Origin: Diploscapter coronatus
Lineage: Eukaryota > Nematoda > Chromadorea > Rhabditida > Rhabditidae
Direction of reading: 5' to 3'
NCBI GenBank assembly: GCA_964036155.1
Contig: OZ038423.1
Location: 35,293,249 to 35,357,248 of the forward strand
DNA: 64,000 nt
In this document: positions 1 to 48,200 of the stretch, piece by piece
How positions within the stretch are numbered: position 1 is the first letter of the stretch
Layout of the letters: each line of letters opens with the position of its first letter
The notes under the pieces: model-generated
Database searches by the model: none
The model's input: the letters and a program-made list of their open reading frames with translations, nothing else
Told to the model about the DNA's origin: nothing
Position numbers and translations under genes: made by a program

Positions 1-1902
1 TGCACGGGGCGAACGGTCTGTCATCGGGCAATCGAGCAGCTGCAGCCCTGGGCGGCTCTGCCCACTCCACTCTCTCCATCAACTACGCCAATGCTGACAC
101 CATCACTGTCAATCTCAATTCTGATTCCAAAGAGTAGGCCAGCCACATTTGCATTTTTCCATTCAGGTTTTGTGTCCTTCGAAGATTCATACACGAGTAA
201 TCATTTTGAAAATATTGTTTCTATCGCGATTTACCAAATTTCACGAGAAAAAGTTGACGAAAAATCATTAAATGAAATCTGACAAAACATGCTTCTTCCA
301 TTTTAGTCTGCTTTATTATCTATATGAGAAGGATAATGACATTGATTTCAGACAGCAGAGTGAGTCAGCAAAAGAAGTGCCTCTGTGGATGCAGGACAAT
401 GCGCATAATATAAGTGAGTCTTTTATGAATTTTATGAAGGCGAATAATTTGAAATGTATTGATCAAGGGAATACAGGATGCGTCAGAGATTTGTATAGTT
501 TCTGAACATACACTTTCAATAAAGATAATAATTCTGAGTCAAAGAGTTGTTTTATGACAAGATCGTGCTTCTTGGATGAACGAATTTCATAAAACATCTC
601 AAATCTTTGTTCACATGCTCAGATTAGATAGAGAATATCTTGAATCTATGAGATTATCCAAACTTTTGGCTTATTCTTTTAAATGAATAAAATAAGTTTT
701 TTTTTCTATAGATTAAGTCCGAAAAATTAGTTTTATGTCTTTCATTTCTAGGCAACGATATGGGCGAACACGACAAGGCAGTGGCTTCCCTCACCTCAAA
801 TGAGATAGCTGCGACGTTAGTCAAGAGCATAAAGGTATTCGGATGAATGATGGTTTGAATTGCAGAACTCCGAAGGAGGAATCGGCAGGTCTGAAGCGAG
901 TCGGGCAGTCGCTACACTTGCTCGCGCAACTCGAGGGGGAGCAGGCCGACAATCCACCCGCTAAAATCGCTAAGGTAAATGAAAAATTTCTGAAACTTAA
1001 ATTTCTTGAAACATCCACAAGCTTTTCTTGTAAATACATTGACACATTAAAATTAAAAATGCGTTATTTTAGTGTGCTACATTCGTTCACATTTACCTAA
1101 ACTTGAAGAATTATTCTTATCTGAGTTTGTTCTAGCGCTACAAATTTTAATCACATAGATTCAGCATAAATGGATGAATGAAACACTAAAAATCATGCAC
1201 TATTTCAAATTTTATTCACGTCTGTATCTCTACACAGAGTTTCGAAGAAAAACAAGACTATCTGCAAATATTGATTTCTTTGCTTTAGATTCAAGACTAT
1301 CAAACGTTTGAAAATTGAAAAAATATTCATAATCTTCTTATTATGAAAATATTAAAGGCTTATTTCAGACTGACGAGACAGAAGAGAAGAAAAAGCAGGC
1401 AGCCGAATCAGAGAGCGACGAAGAGGAAGACGTGATGATCCAAGTCGCTGGAAAGATGGTATGTTGTTATGCTGTTATTCCAGTCTTTAAGAATTTTACA
1501 ACCTTCTAGAAAGTTCGTAATGAACTGTTCCTGATAAGAATAGGCCTATAAGGAACACTATATAAGAACAAAAACTCTAATCATCTTTTTCAATTTTTCT
1601 AAGTTTCTTTCAAGCACATTCATTCATTCTTGGGCAAATTATAGAAAATGACCGTCTATCCTCCAACCCTGTAATTCCTTTGATTGTTCCCTTTCCTCCC
1701 TAGTTTAAATTATGAGTTCTTACATCTCTTGATTTTGATTCTCCCGTTTTTGCCATTGAATATTTTCCCTTTCACTTTCAATCATTCAATTGAATGACTT
1801 TAGATTCCATGGGGCGAAGTGACAGAGGAGATGGTAATGGAGATGACCGAGGAGGAGCGAGAGAACTATCAACGAATCGTGGCTGAGCACATCGATTTCT
1901 GA
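1..1902 (+). CDS. GTF2E1: TFIIE alpha subunit, 3' part (start lies left of the window)
   Basis: General transcription factor that joins RNA polymerase II and recruits and regulates TFIIH at promoters in the nucleus. Only the C-terminal part is present. Exons read: about 3-138 (ending near NADTITVNLNSDSKE), 356-414 (EVPLWMQDNAH, like the KE.PIW segment of animal TFIIE alpha), 753-831, about 870-974, 1371-1459 and 1804-1902. The last two carry the diagnostic end: an acidic run (ESESDEEED), then IQVAGKMIPWGEV and EMTEEERENYQ. These match the conserved VMVAG...Y.EV...MTPEEKE.Y tail of metazoan TFIIE alpha. The stop is TGA at 1900-1902. The exon starting near 865 only joins in frame if an unusual acceptor is used, so that junction is unsure. 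The family assignment is firm from the C-terminal tail; the zinc-ribbon and winged-helix parts are outside the window. Confidence 0.85.
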
Positions 1903-13462: not shown

Positions 13463-13604
13463 CTGGAATTCCAATTCAGTTATTCAGTCATTTAGTCCTC
13501 CTTTACCCTTTCCAAACTCTCGTTTATTAACAGCCAAAACAGCGCAATAAATCTCATTTCTCCTCAGAAAAAGAAAAAAGAAAACATTTCTCCCCTTTAT
13601 CATT

Positions 13605-13804
13605 NNNNNNNNNNNNNNNNNNNNNNNNNNNNNNNNNNNNNNNNNNNNNNNNNNNNNNNNNNNNNNNNNNNNNNNNNNNNNNNNNNNNNNNNNNNNNNNN
13701 NNNNNNNNNNNNNNNNNNNNNNNNNNNNNNNNNNNNNNNNNNNNNNNNNNNNNNNNNNNNNNNNNNNNNNNNNNNNNNNNNNNNNNNNNNNNNNNNNNNN
13801 NNNN
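13605..13804. other. Assembly gap (200 N)
   Basis: Exactly 200 unknown bases, probably a placeholder of fixed length. The 5' exons of RPS16 and the 3' exons of chitin synthase are both missing at this point, so the true missing sequence must be several kilobases, or the two flanks are wrongly joined. Confidence 0.99.
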
Positions 13805-13959
13805 GTTTTGGTGGATATTTACGAAGTCAGTTTTAAAATTATAGAAAAAGATCAAATGTGAGAGAAAAATTGAGATCTCTACGCCCTTTTTTCTAGAAGA
13901 AACTCACTTTGATTTCAATTAATCATCAGCTTTTAACAATTCAACAGAATATGCCTTAC

Positions 13960-30384: not shown

Positions 30385-33300
30385 TCACTCTTCTGTCTTC
30401 TTCTCCTGCCCATTGCATCTGTCTCTCTGCTCTGACAGTCCATCCATATTCACATTTATCTGCTGCGCTTGCGTCTCTTCCAGCACGCGGTTCACATCCA
30501 GCCAAACCTGCAAACATTCTCCAATAAAGTCATAGCTTGAGTTACTAAATTTCCAAGAGTGCAAATTTGTGTGGATTTCGCATGTTCATTTTACTGAACT
30601 AGAATCTTCTCGGAGTTTTGTAAATTTGAAGACGAGAGAAAATAATAAACTTTCAAATTTGTCCATGTAAAACGATTTGATAAATCACGTCAAATACTTG
30701 TGTATTGCTTCAAAACTTTAAAGCTCCTATTCTTCCTACCTGTGCCCGTATTTTATCATCATCTGTGCTGCCGTCCTCTGCAGTTTTCCTCTTGAATCGA
30801 GACAAGCTTGAACCCGTCGCTTCTACAGAATCCAGCAGCTGAAACTCAGAAAATTAATTTGATTTTATAAAGAACGATTTTTTTCAGAATCGTGCATTAT
30901 TTTAATCAGGAATGAATCGAAATGCAAGTTTTTTAAAATTTTTGAAAAAGATAGTAAAAAATACCTGTCTGACAATGGGAACCCACTCGTCGATGGCCAT
31001 CTGCACGAGTCTGGTTTGCAGTGCTTCTGCTTTCGCATGTCCACACTCAGTCAGGCCCTTCCTCAGCAGCTGCATTCTGTCCAGAGCCACATTCACGTAG
31101 GCAGAGCAGCTCGTTGGCAGCAGCTTCTTCGTCCACCTGTACTGCTTCGGAATCTCGCTCACTCCATTCAGATCCTGGAATCAGAACATCTCATAAATTA
31201 GTTTGATGTGAATTCTCTGGCAAACGGTGAGAAAGTTAAGAAAAAAAACAATTGGTTTTGATCGATAGATCATTTTAATGAGGTAATGAAATTCCTAATC
31301 ATAGGAAACAACTGCTCGAGAAAATAATCAGATTTTTATGCTAGGTTTTCATAATTTCAGAAGTAAATCGAGAAAAAAATCATACCGCAATGACGAGTTT
31401 GAATGCAGTGGAGAGGAGTGTTTGTTCGAGGGAATTTGCCTGTGCTGCCGCGAGACTACTGTACTGAGTCAGACACTGGCCGAATAAGTTGCATTCCAGA
31501 TCGAGATCGCTGGAATTGATATTAAAACAAATTAATTGAAAAAAAACTTTGAAGAAATAATAGGATATTTTAACGAAGAATAAGGTCATTGGTTGAAAAC
31601 GAATATCGCTTCCACAAATGAGAAATAAAGGATGAAAATCGAATATTTCAAATTCTAAAGAAGTAATACTGCCAACCAAAATAGCTAACTTTCGTGCAAA
31701 TTTTAAAATGCAACTACCGTATGATAGTCCAAATTCGTTCGAGTGCAAAGTCGAATACGATGGAGTGGAACGTGTTGCAGTCGTACAGAATGCAGCACAG
31801 CGAAAAGATGTCTTCCTCTGACAATTCGGGCTTCGATGCAAAATGCCTGAAAATGAAAATGTGTAAAAAAGGAAAAGTCTGTAAAAGTAAAAGTGTAATG
31901 GTATCGTAACTAATGTATAAAATAGCATTAGAAAGGAATCCTTCTAGCAGATTCTTCTCTTCTTTATGGTACAATATATTATCGTGAATAAACTTTTTAA
32001 AACTTCTAACAATTTACTATTGAATCCTTTTCCCTCCTAATATTATTTTGTTCAAAATTATATTATCTTAATTACATACTACTTCGCCATTTTCTTATTA
32101 CCTGGCAAATTCATGGTGAGAGAAATAACAAAATGGCTAAAATACCGAATAAAATAAAGATTCCTACTCGTTCATTGCTTTGATCCAATTGACGTGTTTG
32201 GCGAGTAGTCGCAGAGTCAAATCCCACATTTTGTCTGCAAGCGGCGGCAGAAAGGTCTGCTCGTTCCAGACGTGGCGAATCGTGTCGATCACGTTCTGAG
32301 AGGTCGAGCATTTCAAGGGCATTTCCTCTCCGTCTGCATCTGCCTGCAACATTCCTCCATAAAATCTCTAGTAAAAATTCACCAACTTACAGTATCCTTA
32401 ACCATTGCAAATGACTCAGGCTTCATGCTTTCATCCACCTTCTTCACTTGCTTATGGGTCTCCAATTTGAAATAGACAATCAAGTTGAATTTCTCACGAA
32501 TCGCCTTCAGAAGTTGTCTAAAAGTGCAAATGTATTAGTTTACGACTCTTCAAATCAAACCTATTCTTGTGCCCATTAGGATATTGGTTGATGAAGTTCT
32601 GCGTGGCCAGGAAGCAGGTGTGAAAAAGACGAGTGTTGCTCGGCACGATCACTATGCTCATGCACTGGTAAAATAAGGTTTATTGCCTTCCGCATGATTT
32701 ATCAAGGCAATTTAGCAAGAAAAACTGGCAATTGTTGATTTTATGAATACTCATACTGGAAATCATTATAAAAAAAATTTCAATATGAAATAATAATAAA
32801 CGTTAAATTTGCATTTTTAGCATCTGAATAGTTTACCTTGTCAAAGAAAGTGAGGACGAAAGTGAGTAGAGTGCTGTCGAGGAAGGACTGGATGCTGCCG
32901 CTGAAACGAGGACCGAGGGAATTGCTCCAGCCACTTCGCATCTCAAAAAATTCATTCAAAGGATACATTACAAGAAATGGCAATTTGGAAAAGTGGTTAC
33001 ATCGTTGCATACGAAGTATAGTAGTTTATTAGAGAAAGAACTCTTTTCCCTATTATTTCGTATGCAACTACTTTTCCAGGTTGCTCGTATATAAATAACC
33101 TGCAAAACTCGATCGAACACGCTGCACAGCAATGTGTGCAGATCTGCATTCTCACGGACCAGTTTCGGATAGATCACATCCGACACGATTCGGGCTGTCA
33201 GAGTGTCCGTGCTCTGAAGCTTCACTTTTTCTGATTTTATAAGAGCAATAAGAAAATAAAACTTCGATTTCTATTCACACTTGCTTAAAAAACGCAAATA

Positions 33301-40550: not shown

Positions 40551-43500
40551 TCAGAGGAAGTAACAAGTGCCCCCGCTCGTGGAAATGTTGTCCATTGCGA
40601 GGATCTTGCCCTGTGCAGATGGATTGTAGAATATGATGAAAATCCTGTGTGCAGTCTGCACTCGAATGCGAGCTGTCAGTCTGTTCCACGCTCGCTCGCT
40701 CACTCTATGCGATTGACACCTAAATGAGAACGTTATTCCATTCAGTAGATACTTCTTATAGAGGTGCGATGGTATTTGTGACTTGAAATGAAGATTGAGT
40801 TGTAAAATTATCAATTTATTTTCTTCATATACTCGTGAACGGCCACGAATTATCATATCTGCTTCCTGAATTGAAACAACTTGTTACCTGTGAAGTGAAT
40901 GGACGCAAATGCGCACTTGCACAGCAGCGGAGGGGAATAAGTCGATGCTCATTCGAATCGGCCCGTCCACTCGACTTCGTCGCACTAGACCTGCATACCC
41001 GAATGGGGGTAGGCGAATGAGACCATAGCGATTTTCTAGATCAAATTTGGCTTGAATTCTTAATGTTTCATCAAATTCTCTTACCTTTCTTTTCTGCTAC
41101 AGTCACATTGTTAAAACTGCTCGATAGTAGTCGCATATCAGCCCATCTAATTGTAAGGAAATTATTGAAGTAACGATAAGACATTTTGATAATTTACCCG
41201 CATTCTCTCCCTCTTTCAAAGTCGCACAACGAATTTGTGCAGATCGTTGGCACGCAGCTACATTTCCCATTCGAGCATTGTCTAAAAGTTTTCATACTGA
41301 AATTATGAAAACTTCGTTTGCATAAAAAATATATGACTATTTGTGAAATTGTGAAACAAGAAACTTAATTAATCGTGGAGCATTTGAATTTAAAAACTGA
41401 TGAAGAATTACGCCTATCTCTATTTTGTCAATATGATACAAAATATAATTGATGAATTTTTGCCTAATTGTTCTATCATAAATTTCAAGGGGGTTTTTAT
41501 GCTGAAAAATTGCTAAATTTGTACGACTTACAACAGGCATTCCTTGTCTTTTTTTGTTTGCATAGTTGTTGTTGTTACATCTTCGTATTCGTTCTTGTAA
41601 ACCATAGGTGCTGAAGGCATTTTTCTTCTCAACTGACAGACGCATATTTTTTGTTGGATATTTCGACGAATACAGCGAGCTCCTGATCTACAAATAATCA
41701 AATACATTATTCAGTCTTTTTTCCTGCCTACCCATTATCCTGCTGATCCGAGCATTTTCTTCTGCAAGCCTGCAGTCCTTCTCTTCCTTCACACATACGA
41801 ACTCTTTTCGGGGGGCAATCGTCTAAAATAGTAAATAGACAAATTGAGTACCCCTATCTGTGTTATTTGCTGATCTTCGTCACCGAATTTTCAATTATGC
41901 TACGTAAGGGAACAGTAGGTTACAAAGCGGCCACATATACAGGGGTTCAACACATGTTCAATAAAATAATCAACCTCCAACACACTGATGTCTGAATCTC
42001 TGCTTGCTCTGTCCAACAACGCCGACTTCATGTCGATTGTCCTCTTGTCTGCAGGATGAGAATGATACAGACAGATCATCTACAAGAATTGCACTGCCTG
42101 CGCTCACATTCGAGAATTTGAACACAATCTGAGGTTTTCTTGTTATTTCGATAACAAAACGGATATATATATATATTTTTTTTTTAATCTTGGATTGAAC
42201 AGGAACTTGAAAAAAAACTATAATTTGACATTTCTGACATAAAATACCTGAAAATGTCGGGAACCAGGCAGGCCTTCATTAAGAAGATGTCCATTGCTAG
42301 TTTTTATAGGAGCACAAATAGTTTCTTGGTCTTCTCTAAATAGGTTTTTTTTTTTTGTAATTCTATGAGATAAGTATAAAATGTACCTGAAACAAAGCTG
42401 CACATTGACCCCTTCAGAGCGCCAAACTCGTGCAGAAACATTGACAGAACTAGTGCTGCAGAGAGAGCATGTGCTTAGCAGGATGGCTGATGAGGGCACT
42501 GAACTGTGCGGAGTGCTCACAAGGTAGTCACCGTCTGAAATTCCTCCCTGTGCGATGTTCTATTTCGATCGGTTTGATACGAATAGTATGCTATCCATAA
42601 TGGAAAATCAACTCATTACAACATTATAAATTTATCGTTCTCTGCACTTTCATGTTTCTTTCATGTTTACTCGAGCAGAATATTCTATCAAAATGAGTTC
42701 GCTACCATTTTCATCTTATCTTTTCCGAATTTATGATCTGAAAATTTTGCTGCGTTCAATAATGATTTTCTTACTATTAGAGGTACTTTCAAAGGAGATC
42801 TAATATGTAGCATACTTGGTGATTCAAATGGAGTAATGCCGAATGGGCTGGCTGCAAACCACGCGGATGATGAAGACCTGAGCCATCCGCATGTGGAGTA
42901 GTGGATTGAGGAACATTGTAATGAGGCGTAGGACTAAAAATTTCGCATTTATTCTATGAAAACATGTCATCGGAATTGTACGACATTATCCTAATTCATT
43001 AAGATACATTTTGTACTTGAAGATAATGAACTGTTTCAAAGGGAAACAATCATGATGTCAGAGTTTATATCTTTTTAGCCAATATAGACTTCGGAATCGG
43101 TCAAAAGTCTTCTTTCTATCCTCTGAACTACGCTAATGGTCAATTACGCAAGTTCAGCAACATACCGTCGGACACAATGGGGAAGGTGGAAGTGGTTGAA
43201 GTGAAGAATGTAGCCGAAGGGAGTCAAAGGCAAACGGATCCACGATTAAACCTGATTGACACAAGGAGTCAGGTAGAAAACAACGGCAGATGAAGGAGCG
43301 GATGCCGAAGAAGGACAACAATGTACCTGACATAATGAAGATTACAGGTTGGGGGACCAAACTTTACGACAATTGAGATCACAAAGGTAGTCAAAGTCGA
43401 TGTTTAACGAATTTTGGTATCATTTCTTGAGTTTCATTTAGCAATCTTTATGATAATCAAGTCATGATGCTAGGATCAGTATTTTGAGAATTATGAACCA

Positions 43501-44429
43501 AAATTCAATCTCTATGAACTAATTATTCTGCAGAGGGTACTAAAATGAAGAGAAAAGCTTTAGAAACGCATAATAGTTTCTGTACGTCATATTTTTCTAG
43601 TTATAGTGATTCGATCCAGCTGAAACTTGGCTGGATTTCATAGTTCGATTCAATGAATATGTGTGACAAATCTCATCAAAATCCGATCTTGATAAATATG
43701 TAGACTTTGTAGGTATTCAAAACTGTATTTCCAAACTTGCTCGCAACTGTATATTAAGAATGCAAAAGCAACTGACTTGAATCCCTCAGCTGGCAGAGAC
43801 TCCTCGATGCGATGCTGTAGATCTTCTCGCATTTCGCCTGACATTCCATGTCGAAACCCTCTCTTTGTGGACACACATCGTCTGCCAAATCTAAATCATT
43901 GGATTTATTAGATGAGTAAGATTAGAAATTGGTTGTTTTCAATGAATTATTGACCGTAAACAAGAAATTTTACGATATTCCAGAAGAAAAATATTGGAAA
44001 TAAGCTATAATTCATTTCGAATGGGATACAAAATTTGGGTAAATGCGTGATGATTGAAATGGTTCGCATGCCGCTTTTTATCGAATCTATTTGGATGAAG
44101 CCTGCAAAAAATTCCATTTTTATTTTGCTTTCCAAGCGCGCAAAAATCTTCTAAGAGGATTGATCCAAATGCAAGTTGACGGGCAAAAATATAAAATGTC
44201 GTGCATCGTTCTAATTTGTTATGCACCAGTATTTATGTAGAAACGTTCAATTTCTAACACATTCACGAAAAAATATCTGAACGATGCAATTAATGCAGGA
44301 AATCTGTTGACTATATTGAGCGAGGATCAAACCTTTGATACAGCTATTCTGCTGTGGCTGGGAAGAGCCGTTGAGAAGGATGCCGCACAGAAGCAGAACA
44401 TGCAGCAGCACGTCTGCTGGCCGATGCAT
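40551..44429 (-). CDS. Secreted modular protein: CxxxC...CxC cysteine modules and MAM-like segments
   Basis: Predicted extracellular protein. Exon 1 (44332-44429) is a signal peptide (MHRPADVLLHVLLLCGILLN, cleavage near SSQ). The next two exons (43779-43892, 43168-43338) join in phase and contain a six-cysteine module: CPQ..., CQAKC, SLC, FICRC. Later exons (42389-42530, 42008-42081, 41740-41818, 41590-41671, 41218-41283, 40887-41003, 40551-40719) contain a second module: RMCEGREGLQACRRKC, GARC and KICVC. Both modules show C-x(7-9)-CxxxC-x(11)-C-x(n)-CxC, the spacing class of CS-alpha-beta (defensin-like) folds. MAM-like pieces are C...YSTCGW and SVNVSARVWRSEGVNVQLCF after module 1, and LCDFERGRECG, RIRVQTAHRIFIIFYNP and AQGKILAMDNISTSGGTC after module 2. 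Two junctions (near 42820-42540 and 41218-41003) do not join in phase as modelled. Exon edges are approximate. No family name is claimed for the whole protein. Confidence 0.6.
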
Positions 44430-45230: not shown

Positions 45231-48200
45231 TCAAGCGACGAGTTTTTTCTTCTCCTCGATGTCGTCGTCGTTGTCGCTGCCCTCGTCCCAATTCGCTGCG
45301 ATGTTTCGCATCGAAATCGCCAAATAACTGAATTGACAGAATTATCTTGATTCAATATCAGTTAATTTTTTAAAAAAATCTAATTAAAATCATATTCATT
45401 CAATGAAGTGACTGACAAATTTGAATGTTCATTGTTGCATTCCATAATATTAAAGTTGACGTCAAATAGTTTGCTGATGATGAGCTATTTTCATAAATTT
45501 GTACCATTTTTTAATTCAATGGAAGAAAAGATGAAAAAAGGCTTAATTTTTGCGCTCATGAAGATACTAATTATCATTTTCACTTTTTCGAAAACGTGTC
45601 CTCCGCAAACTGATTCCAGATAGAAATGCAAGTGACATTTGGATTAAACCGCTTTGGAAGAGACGTTCTCGTTTCCGAAAGAACGACGACAATTGAAACC
45701 GAAACCAGAAAGTAGACAAGTCGGGCAAAGGAAGAAAGTGAGAAGAAGAGGAGGGGAGCGGGAGGAGGGAGATGACAGGCAGACGCTGAGATATGCGGGA
45801 TAAAGCAGATTTACCGCTACATTTATCGCTATCCTATCAAAACAAGGCGAGAAAAAATTACAAGAACTTGGAAGAAAGGCAATTTTGACCTATAAAATTA
45901 GAAAAGGAAAATGAAAACGCAAATTCCTATAGATGATATTATTTGGTCTGCGCAAACAGTGACCGATCGGAAGTTCCGGTCTGTTTTCGAAAGTACCGGA
46001 ATTCAAGCGACTTTCGCCGGATTCCAGGCCAGCGGGAAATTGAAATTCCGATTCCGGTTCAGGGTTTTTCAAAAATCAATTCCGGCCGGTTCTTGCACGC
46101 AAATTCTGTTGCTTCAGAAGTCACATTAAATGTTGAAATGTCCCAATAGCGAATGCATGCTAATTTTACGCTAACTTTCTTATCTATGCATCTGATCGCA
46201 TAATTTCAGCATGATAAATTCAGTCTATATCCGTCGAAAAATCAGGAATGTAGCATTGAAAGACTTTACCAACCCACTAATATCCGCCTTTCATAAAATT
46301 CTAATCTTTGCTAAAAAGTGCCAGTTTGTGAAAACTTGTAATCTCGACTTCTAACATTAGGCAAGCATAGTCGAATATAAATTTTAAAAAGAAATGAAGT
46401 TTGTCTAACCTGGCAGGAATGTCGCCCAGATTGAGTGAAATCTGTTCGATTACAAAGAGACCGTCTCTGTCTAGAATTCGCAGGAATTTTTCGTTCGAAA
46501 TTGGGGAAGGCATTTGGGCTGTCGAGAGGTAATTCATCACCAAAGTGCGAGTCTTAAGGATGCAATGGAAATTCAGGATAAAATTATAAAGAATAAAGAA
46601 TACCCTTCTAGTTGAGCAGAGACTGGCCAGCCATTTGCAAGTATTCAACAAAGACATTACTGCTACAAACAACAACCAGAACCATAGGAAAATGAATATT
46701 TTCTCGTAGATCAAGTTCAATGTCAGCACACATAAAACTGTGTCCATCTAAATGTTTACGTTCATTCATTTTGCGTCAAAATTTTATACAAATCATGCAT
46801 GTAATAAAAGTGTACCGACGATTTTGGCAAGAATTAAATGAGCAAAGGTATTGCAAACCTGGACACTTGCAGGTCGTCTTCTATTGAAATCACAATGAAC
46901 TATTCGAGGGAAGTGACCTGTTTGCTGAAAATTTGCATAAAATTATCAGATTGTTCAAATACTTTAGTACCTGCCAATCATCTCCTGCAATGAGATCAGA
47001 AAGTAATGAAGGTCCCCAGAATGTGTAGAGAGGAGACCCGAGCAGTGTATTTAGCACGAAAAACTGAGAATTGACGAAAATTAATTTTAAAATTTCTCGA
47101 ACAACTAACCTGTACAAATGCATTGACAGTCTGAATGATACTGGCAATTGCGTAGTAGAGGACCATTTCCCTGCTTCGCTTCTTCCTAGCCAGTCGAAGA
47201 CCGTCCCAAATGTACACCGAAGGCCTGCCTTCGAAGGCTGCTACTCGGGCTAGAAGAGAATTATTGTCCATTGATATTTTGGCGATTATCTTGTATTCAT
47301 AATTACTTTTTTTAAAATTAACTAAGAGTTACAAAATGCTAGTAGTATTTTCAATAGGAATGTCGTAATAACCAGACTAAGAAATTGAGATAAAATATAA
47401 ATGTTACAATTGAACGACAGAATTAGCAACTAATTTTACGATATTTCTTCTTGATTTTGCAGCTATTATTGCACATATTCAATTTTGCGTCATGTATTTT
47501 GACAATCTTATGATAAGAGATGAAATCGACTTCCTTCTGTCAAGGAAGTGGTTACTAAAACTTTCTTTAATTATAACGATGTATACCTTTGAAAGAGGCG
47601 TCACTGACTTTGACAGAGGTCCAGAACATGTCGACATATTTGATGGCTTCTGACAGATCGTAACCGCTGTAGGCGATCAATGATCTCCAGATAAATCGAG
47701 GCATATAGAACAGAAAGGCTTGCAGTGCAAAAATATAGGGCACCTTAAAAGGGAAAAATAAGATATATTAAATTAAAAACTGCTTATCATTGGTAATAGT
47801 AGATAGGAACTTTTCTCCGTTCTTCCTCCTCGAAAGATAATTGCTCATCTAATGGCACAAAATACGTCCCTGGAAAAGAGTTTCATAATCACAGAGCCTA
47901 AGATCATCAGGGATGGGTTAGAGGTTTTACTTCTGTTCGAATTTGGAACTTCAAACCTATAATGATATCGTTAAAAATTACCGTGAACATAACAGTACTG
48001 ATTCACAAAATCCGACCTGAAATATTATCATTCATTTAGGAAAGCGAAATTCAGTTTTCCTCTCATCTACAGAGTGAATGTTGCAAAAGGCTAATTTTAG
48101 AGAAACTTGTAAAATTCATCGTCGAGATGACACGCACCCTCATACGATTGAATTAGGCGTCACACAATCGTTTGAAAAGTTCGAACTCATACATTAAGTT

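Follow-up and report, generated by a model that had tools for sequence, protein, structure and literature searches.

The 64,000-nucleotide stretch of Diploscapter coronatus DNA analysed here (the window; assembly GCA_964036155.1, contig OZ038423.1, forward-strand positions 35,293,249 to 35,357,248) contains a minus-strand gene for what appears to be a secreted protein in which small cysteine-rich modules resembling the CS-alpha-beta fold stand before MAM domains (Table 1). In the homologue-guided gene model the ATG lies at 44429 and the stop codon ends at 40551, exactly the extent given by a first-pass annotation made from the sequence alone. The ends of exons 4, 5, 7 and 10 were set by comparison with homologues; the initial homologue search used an earlier model of 572 amino acids (aa), and the corrected model of 529 aa was then scanned against Pfam again. 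The eight most hydrophobic 11-residue segments all start within aa 5–12, and nothing in the chain points to a membrane anchor: past residue 40 the 19-residue hydropathy mean peaks at 1.23, in the module 1 loop described below.

Table 1. Window coordinates of the gene and of the parts of its predicted protein
Feature	Residues	Coordinates	Strand	Remarks
Whole coding region	529 aa	40551..44429	minus	13 exons, stop included
Exons 1–4		44429-44333, 43890-43777, 43326-43166, 42933-42816	minus	
Exons 5–8		42534-42387, 42335-42248, 42128-41975, 41822-41732	minus	
Exons 9–13		41687-41532, 41281-41198, 41146-41085, 41035-40888, 40719-40551	minus	stop included in last
Predicted signal peptide	~1-22	44364..44429	minus	extent judged from hydropathy
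Module 1, CS-alpha-beta-like, 8 Cys	30-93	43259..44342	minus	spans introns 1 and 2
Exons 3 and 4 with intron 3		42816..43326	minus	left out of deposited P0001 and P0002
MAM domain 1	131-268	42051..42915	minus	spans introns 4-6
Module 2, cationic, CS-alpha-beta-like	304-341	41636..41793	minus	spans intron 8; RR shortly after
Module 3, collapsed remnant	374-390	41239..41539	minus	spans intron 9
MAM domain 2	395-526	40563..41226	minus	spans introns 10-12

The assembly comprises three contigs (169.7 Mb), and the gene has just two collinear places in it, one per contig; contig 2 carries the gene in the window, and the copy on contig 1 most simply represents the homologous chromosome. In this second copy all 12 introns keep their GT and AG ends, and its exons together give an uninterrupted reading frame of 531 codons. 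Identity between the copies is 95.5–99.1% in exons and 90.3–96.1% in introns. Coding differences number 30 synonymous and 15 nonsynonymous (synonymous divergence, dS, 0.087; nonsynonymous divergence, dN, 0.012; dN/dS ~0.14), with four synonymous and no nonsynonymous differences in module 1. Computation establishes the gene structure and purifying selection on the gene, which evolves slowly.

The first-pass annotation described two six-cysteine modules, each with 11 residues between the third and fourth cysteines. The in-frame protein confirms this spacing, and the six-cysteine pattern is present in both modules (spacing 9-3-11-18-1-6 in the module 1 core, aa 39–93, and 8-3-11-9-1 in that of module 2, aa 304–341), but module 1 has two further cysteines, C30 and C93. 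The latter is kept in 18 of 18 aligned rows and C30 in 11, the other seven being gapped there or having apparently mispredicted N-termini. When the residues of the 505-aa mature protein (34 cysteines) were shuffled 20000 times, 22 shuffles held one copy of a strict motif and none held two, and for a looser motif the counts were 284 and 3; the actual protein has two copies under both definitions. The framework C...CX3C...C...CX1C is found in 18 of 22 sequences for module 1 and also in 18 for module 2. Sixteen of the 18 share the module 1 spacing (P0011 has 17 in place of 18, and P0020 has 10 in place of 9), and 15 of 18 have module 2 spaced 8-3-11-11-1, the departures being the window and P0001 (9 in place of 11) and P0004, which is without the first cysteine. 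In module 1 a near-invariant hydrophobic loop, LLSFFGIRSF, separates strand 2 from strand 3, with aa 73–75, 77–79 and 81 kept in all 18.

The expected order, a CxxxC helix followed by a two-strand CxC hairpin, is seen in predicted models of orthologues (e.g. module 1 of P0019, helix 42–51, strands 57–62 and 77–83; module 2 of P0014, helix 379–394, strands 399–404 and 412–417), an order that the first-pass annotation had named as support for its reading. The conserved cysteine frameworks and the predicted folds are likewise established by computation, and from the cysteine pattern and these models a CS-alpha-beta fold is predicted for modules 1 and 2. Module 2 of the window matches plant SLR1-BP (E 0.011, 16.5 bits, under the 22.7 cut-off).

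The MAM hallmarks CGW, LCDFERGRECGW and KILAMDNISTSGGTC are all in frame. The first-pass annotation had also named two hits to the MAM profile as support, and Pfam MAM (PF00629) does match two stretches of the protein (21.5 bits, E 0.00023), but the score is under the cut-off of 26.4, which is passed in the orthologue P0014 (28.9, two stretches). At E values up to 10, 14 of 21 members match. A MAM-type beta sandwich is present in the predictions, and the Foldseek lists hold mostly sandwich proteins, together with bacterial Cry proteins and carbohydrate-binding modules; the fold-search rows cover mainly the MAM regions and not the cysteine modules. Run over the assembly, the profile has only two matches listed (contig 1, 10944222-10944686; contig 2, 10494799-10495260), and the present gene, which is exon-split and divergent, is absent from them.

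The MAM stretches, cysteine patterns and predicted models together support the earlier reading of a secreted protein with two CS-alpha-beta-like–MAM units, but that reading overlooked an eroded third module, in which CxxxC and CxC are kept with four residues between them (C-x3-C-x4-C-x-C). Module 3 is complete in 6 of 22 sequences (spacing 7/8-3-10-(5 to 8)-1); several of the remaining sequences are partial models, and the proteins of Caenorhabditis nigoni, C. brenneri, C. remanei, C. japonica and C. angaria are without it. It stands close before MAM domain 2, as module 1 does before MAM domain 1, and is modelled in P0014 as helix 509–518 with strands 522–529 and 532–539. The module 3 profile matches ASABF, Antibacterial factor-related peptide 2, plant defensins and scorpion toxins (best E 0.0021, PDB), and the single shuffled control had no PDB match. 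Of the six module 3 rows, one has a match to the nematode antimicrobial family of Pfam (E 0.015), and a combined profile of modules 2 and 3 has six weak matches, two of them lysozymes. Given the six complete copies and the Diploscapter remnant, the two-unit layout is probably a reduced three-module layout.

The module sequences give no proof of shared origin. Scores from hhalign are 9.5 for modules 1 and 2 (40 shuffled controls, mean 11.3, maximum 20.3), 14.1 for modules 2 and 3 (maximum of 40 controls 18.2) and 15.9 for modules 1 and 3 (maximum of 40 controls 15.7); the two MAM domains align at a probability of 0.96% and E 0.056, a comparison made without a shuffled control. Intron positions add some information. 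Phase-1 introns at aa 164 and 425 fall in the same column in six of six MAFFT alignments; another pair of phase-1 introns follows C30 and C291 at a distance of three residues, but in different alignment columns, and phase-2 introns at aa 213 and 474 are 2 and 6 residues past an aligned cysteine. Duplication of a CS-alpha-beta–MAM unit is likely, though not proven.

Homologue searches returned 22 proteins, of which the 21 with a species name are all from nematodes, in 11 genera (Diploscapter, Caenorhabditis, Auanema, Mesorhabditis, Pristionchus, Heterorhabditis, Nippostrongylus, Dictyocaulus, Angiostrongylus, Necator and Ancylostoma). Diploscapter pachys is placed in Rhabditina, and Auanema and the remaining genera are likewise rhabditine. 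The search needs shared exact words, so that remoter relatives may exist, and the lack of a C. elegans protein among the 22 is no proof of its absence.

The deposited D. pachys protein WR25_01463 (P0001) is identical to that of the window at 436 of 436 aligned residues, and P0002 is identical to P0001 at 344 of 351. The D. pachys model is 93 aa short at exons 3 and 4, which encode one half of module 1 together with the first part of MAM domain 1. Because the loop encoded there is present in 19 of the 22 returned proteins (the exceptions being P0001, P0002 and the C-terminal fragment P0018) and the two copies differ in these exons only synonymously (six synonymous and no nonsynonymous differences, with a chance of ~0.0002 without selection by our arithmetic, which takes ~75% of sites as nonsynonymous), the deposited model is probably an annotation error that conceals half of module 1; alternative splicing may be another reading. 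UniRef automatic names call P0001 Apple domain-containing and P0002 ZP domain-containing, and the Pfam families listed for these proteins and their homologues (21 members, E up to 10) include neither domain.

CS-alpha-beta folds are mostly met as stand-alone defensins and toxins. The protein shares with that superfamily, which includes nematode ABF/MND defensins, plant defensins and the scorpion toxin fold, the predicted helix-strand-strand order and the framework C...CX3C...C...CXC (PMC5234102). It differs from these peptides in having up to three module copies inside a protein of ~530–680 aa and, in module 1, an 18-residue conserved hydrophobic loop; where the ABF/MND antimicrobial peptides are small, stand-alone and secreted, the window encodes a 529-aa multidomain protein. 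With the MAM proteins (meprins, RPTP-mu, neuropilin) it shares the predicted fold and the profile match, but its MAM domains are divergent and the chain lacks any protease, phosphatase or transmembrane portion. Nematode proteins deposited as ‘MAM domain-containing’ (e.g. P0003–P0005) are homologues, probably orthologues, whose printed names omit the cysteine modules, and none of the homologues' database names, as printed, describes the combination. A survey of nematode antimicrobial peptides reports CS-alpha-beta genes, including putative drosomycins in two Diploscapter species, and treats them as peptides, the word MAM being absent from its main text (PMC10506718). No protein combining the two was found by title or abstract start in the literature searched on MAM, defensin, nematode or Diploscapter, a scope that excludes subscription papers and WormBase. 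Both folds are already known; the combination may perhaps be new.

Elsewhere in the window are a minus-strand innexin (gap-junction) exon (46304-46747, Pfam E 3.3e-18) and a minus-strand exon that encodes part of the COG complex subunit 2 C-terminal domain (30905-31180, Pfam E 4.4e-10). A run of N at ~13560-13830 is read as X in frames. Rfam at the gathering threshold and ARAGORN with the bacterial code find nothing in the window.

On balance we lean towards a secreted protein that is conserved in rhabditine nematodes and works outside the cell. It would consist of a probably duplicated CS-alpha-beta–MAM unit plus an extra central CS-alpha-beta module, and would act in matrix or adhesion, or in presenting a ligand, rather than in killing microbes. 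A fixed partner is favoured because of the slow evolution, the single place per contig and the near-invariant module 1 loop, and it is these signs, with the apparently adhesive nature of MAM, that lead us to prefer this role; MAM contributes to meprin dimerisation (PMC9848320) and occurs in neuropilins (PMC9083331). The MAM sandwiches would let the protein associate with itself or with partners in the extracellular space, the disulfide-rich modules would form rigid binding heads, and the module 1 loop would be the main contact. Several points weigh against this proposal. The MAM score of the protein itself is sub-threshold, and MAM domain 1 in isolation has no Pfam match; the profiles of modules 1 and 2 each have 0 PDB matches; module-to-module scores do not clearly exceed those of shuffled controls; and the structure models were built on 19–21 aligned rows, with the predicted local distance difference test (pLDDT) of the modules in P0014 mostly 60–85. 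Module 2 is cationic, as antimicrobial peptides often are, and the conserved loop may simply pack against MAM domain 1.

Unlikely, in our judgement, is a secreted ligand or a modulator of channels or receptors, with CS-alpha-beta heads binding a membrane receptor or ion channel and MAM only dimerising or anchoring. Scorpion neurotoxins bind channels and are, by name, among the PDB matches of module 3, and the invariant loop also suggests a fixed partner, but module 1 is without a PDB match. A processed or antimicrobial role is kept as a rival because module 2 carries a positive charge in all 18 sequences with it (+4 to +7) and is followed, two residues on, by RR in 17 of them (by eye). An innate immune effector, whose cationic modules kill or bind microbes while MAM targets or multimerises them, would also suit the antimicrobial-family match of module 3; the two collinear places, the low dN/dS and the charges of modules 1 (0 to +4) and 3 (-6 to 0) make it quite improbable. 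Release by convertases of an 8-cysteine cationic CS-alpha-beta peptide, through cuts at basic sites flanking the central segment, could draw on the at least two K/R directly before the upstream cysteine pair of module 2 in 8 of 18 sequences (by eye), but the Diploscapter, C. nigoni, C. japonica, C. brenneri and C. remanei proteins have no N-side dibasic, and SP or AP follows RR in 15 of 17, an expected poor cleavage site; we regard it as about as improbable. Least probable is another fold such as PAN/Apple with convergent likeness to CS-alpha-beta, which has the automatic name of P0001 in its favour, since the near-identical P0002 is named ZP instead, PAN is absent from the eight Pfam families listed for the 21 members and from the window's protein, and the predicted models show the short CS-alpha-beta order.

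Returning to the extracellular matrix, adhesion or ligand protein, we tentatively suggest that rhabditine nematodes have domesticated the defensin fold, turning it into a constant binding module without an immune role. On this view an ancestral CS-alpha-beta–MAM unit was duplicated together with a third CS-alpha-beta module, and the outcome is a conserved scaffold outside the cell in which the loop of module 1 would recognise a fixed partner. If true, a conserved multidomain protein with fixed CS-alpha-beta modules would show how an immune peptide can become a structural or signalling domain, and the Caenorhabditis homologues make this testable in laboratory worms.
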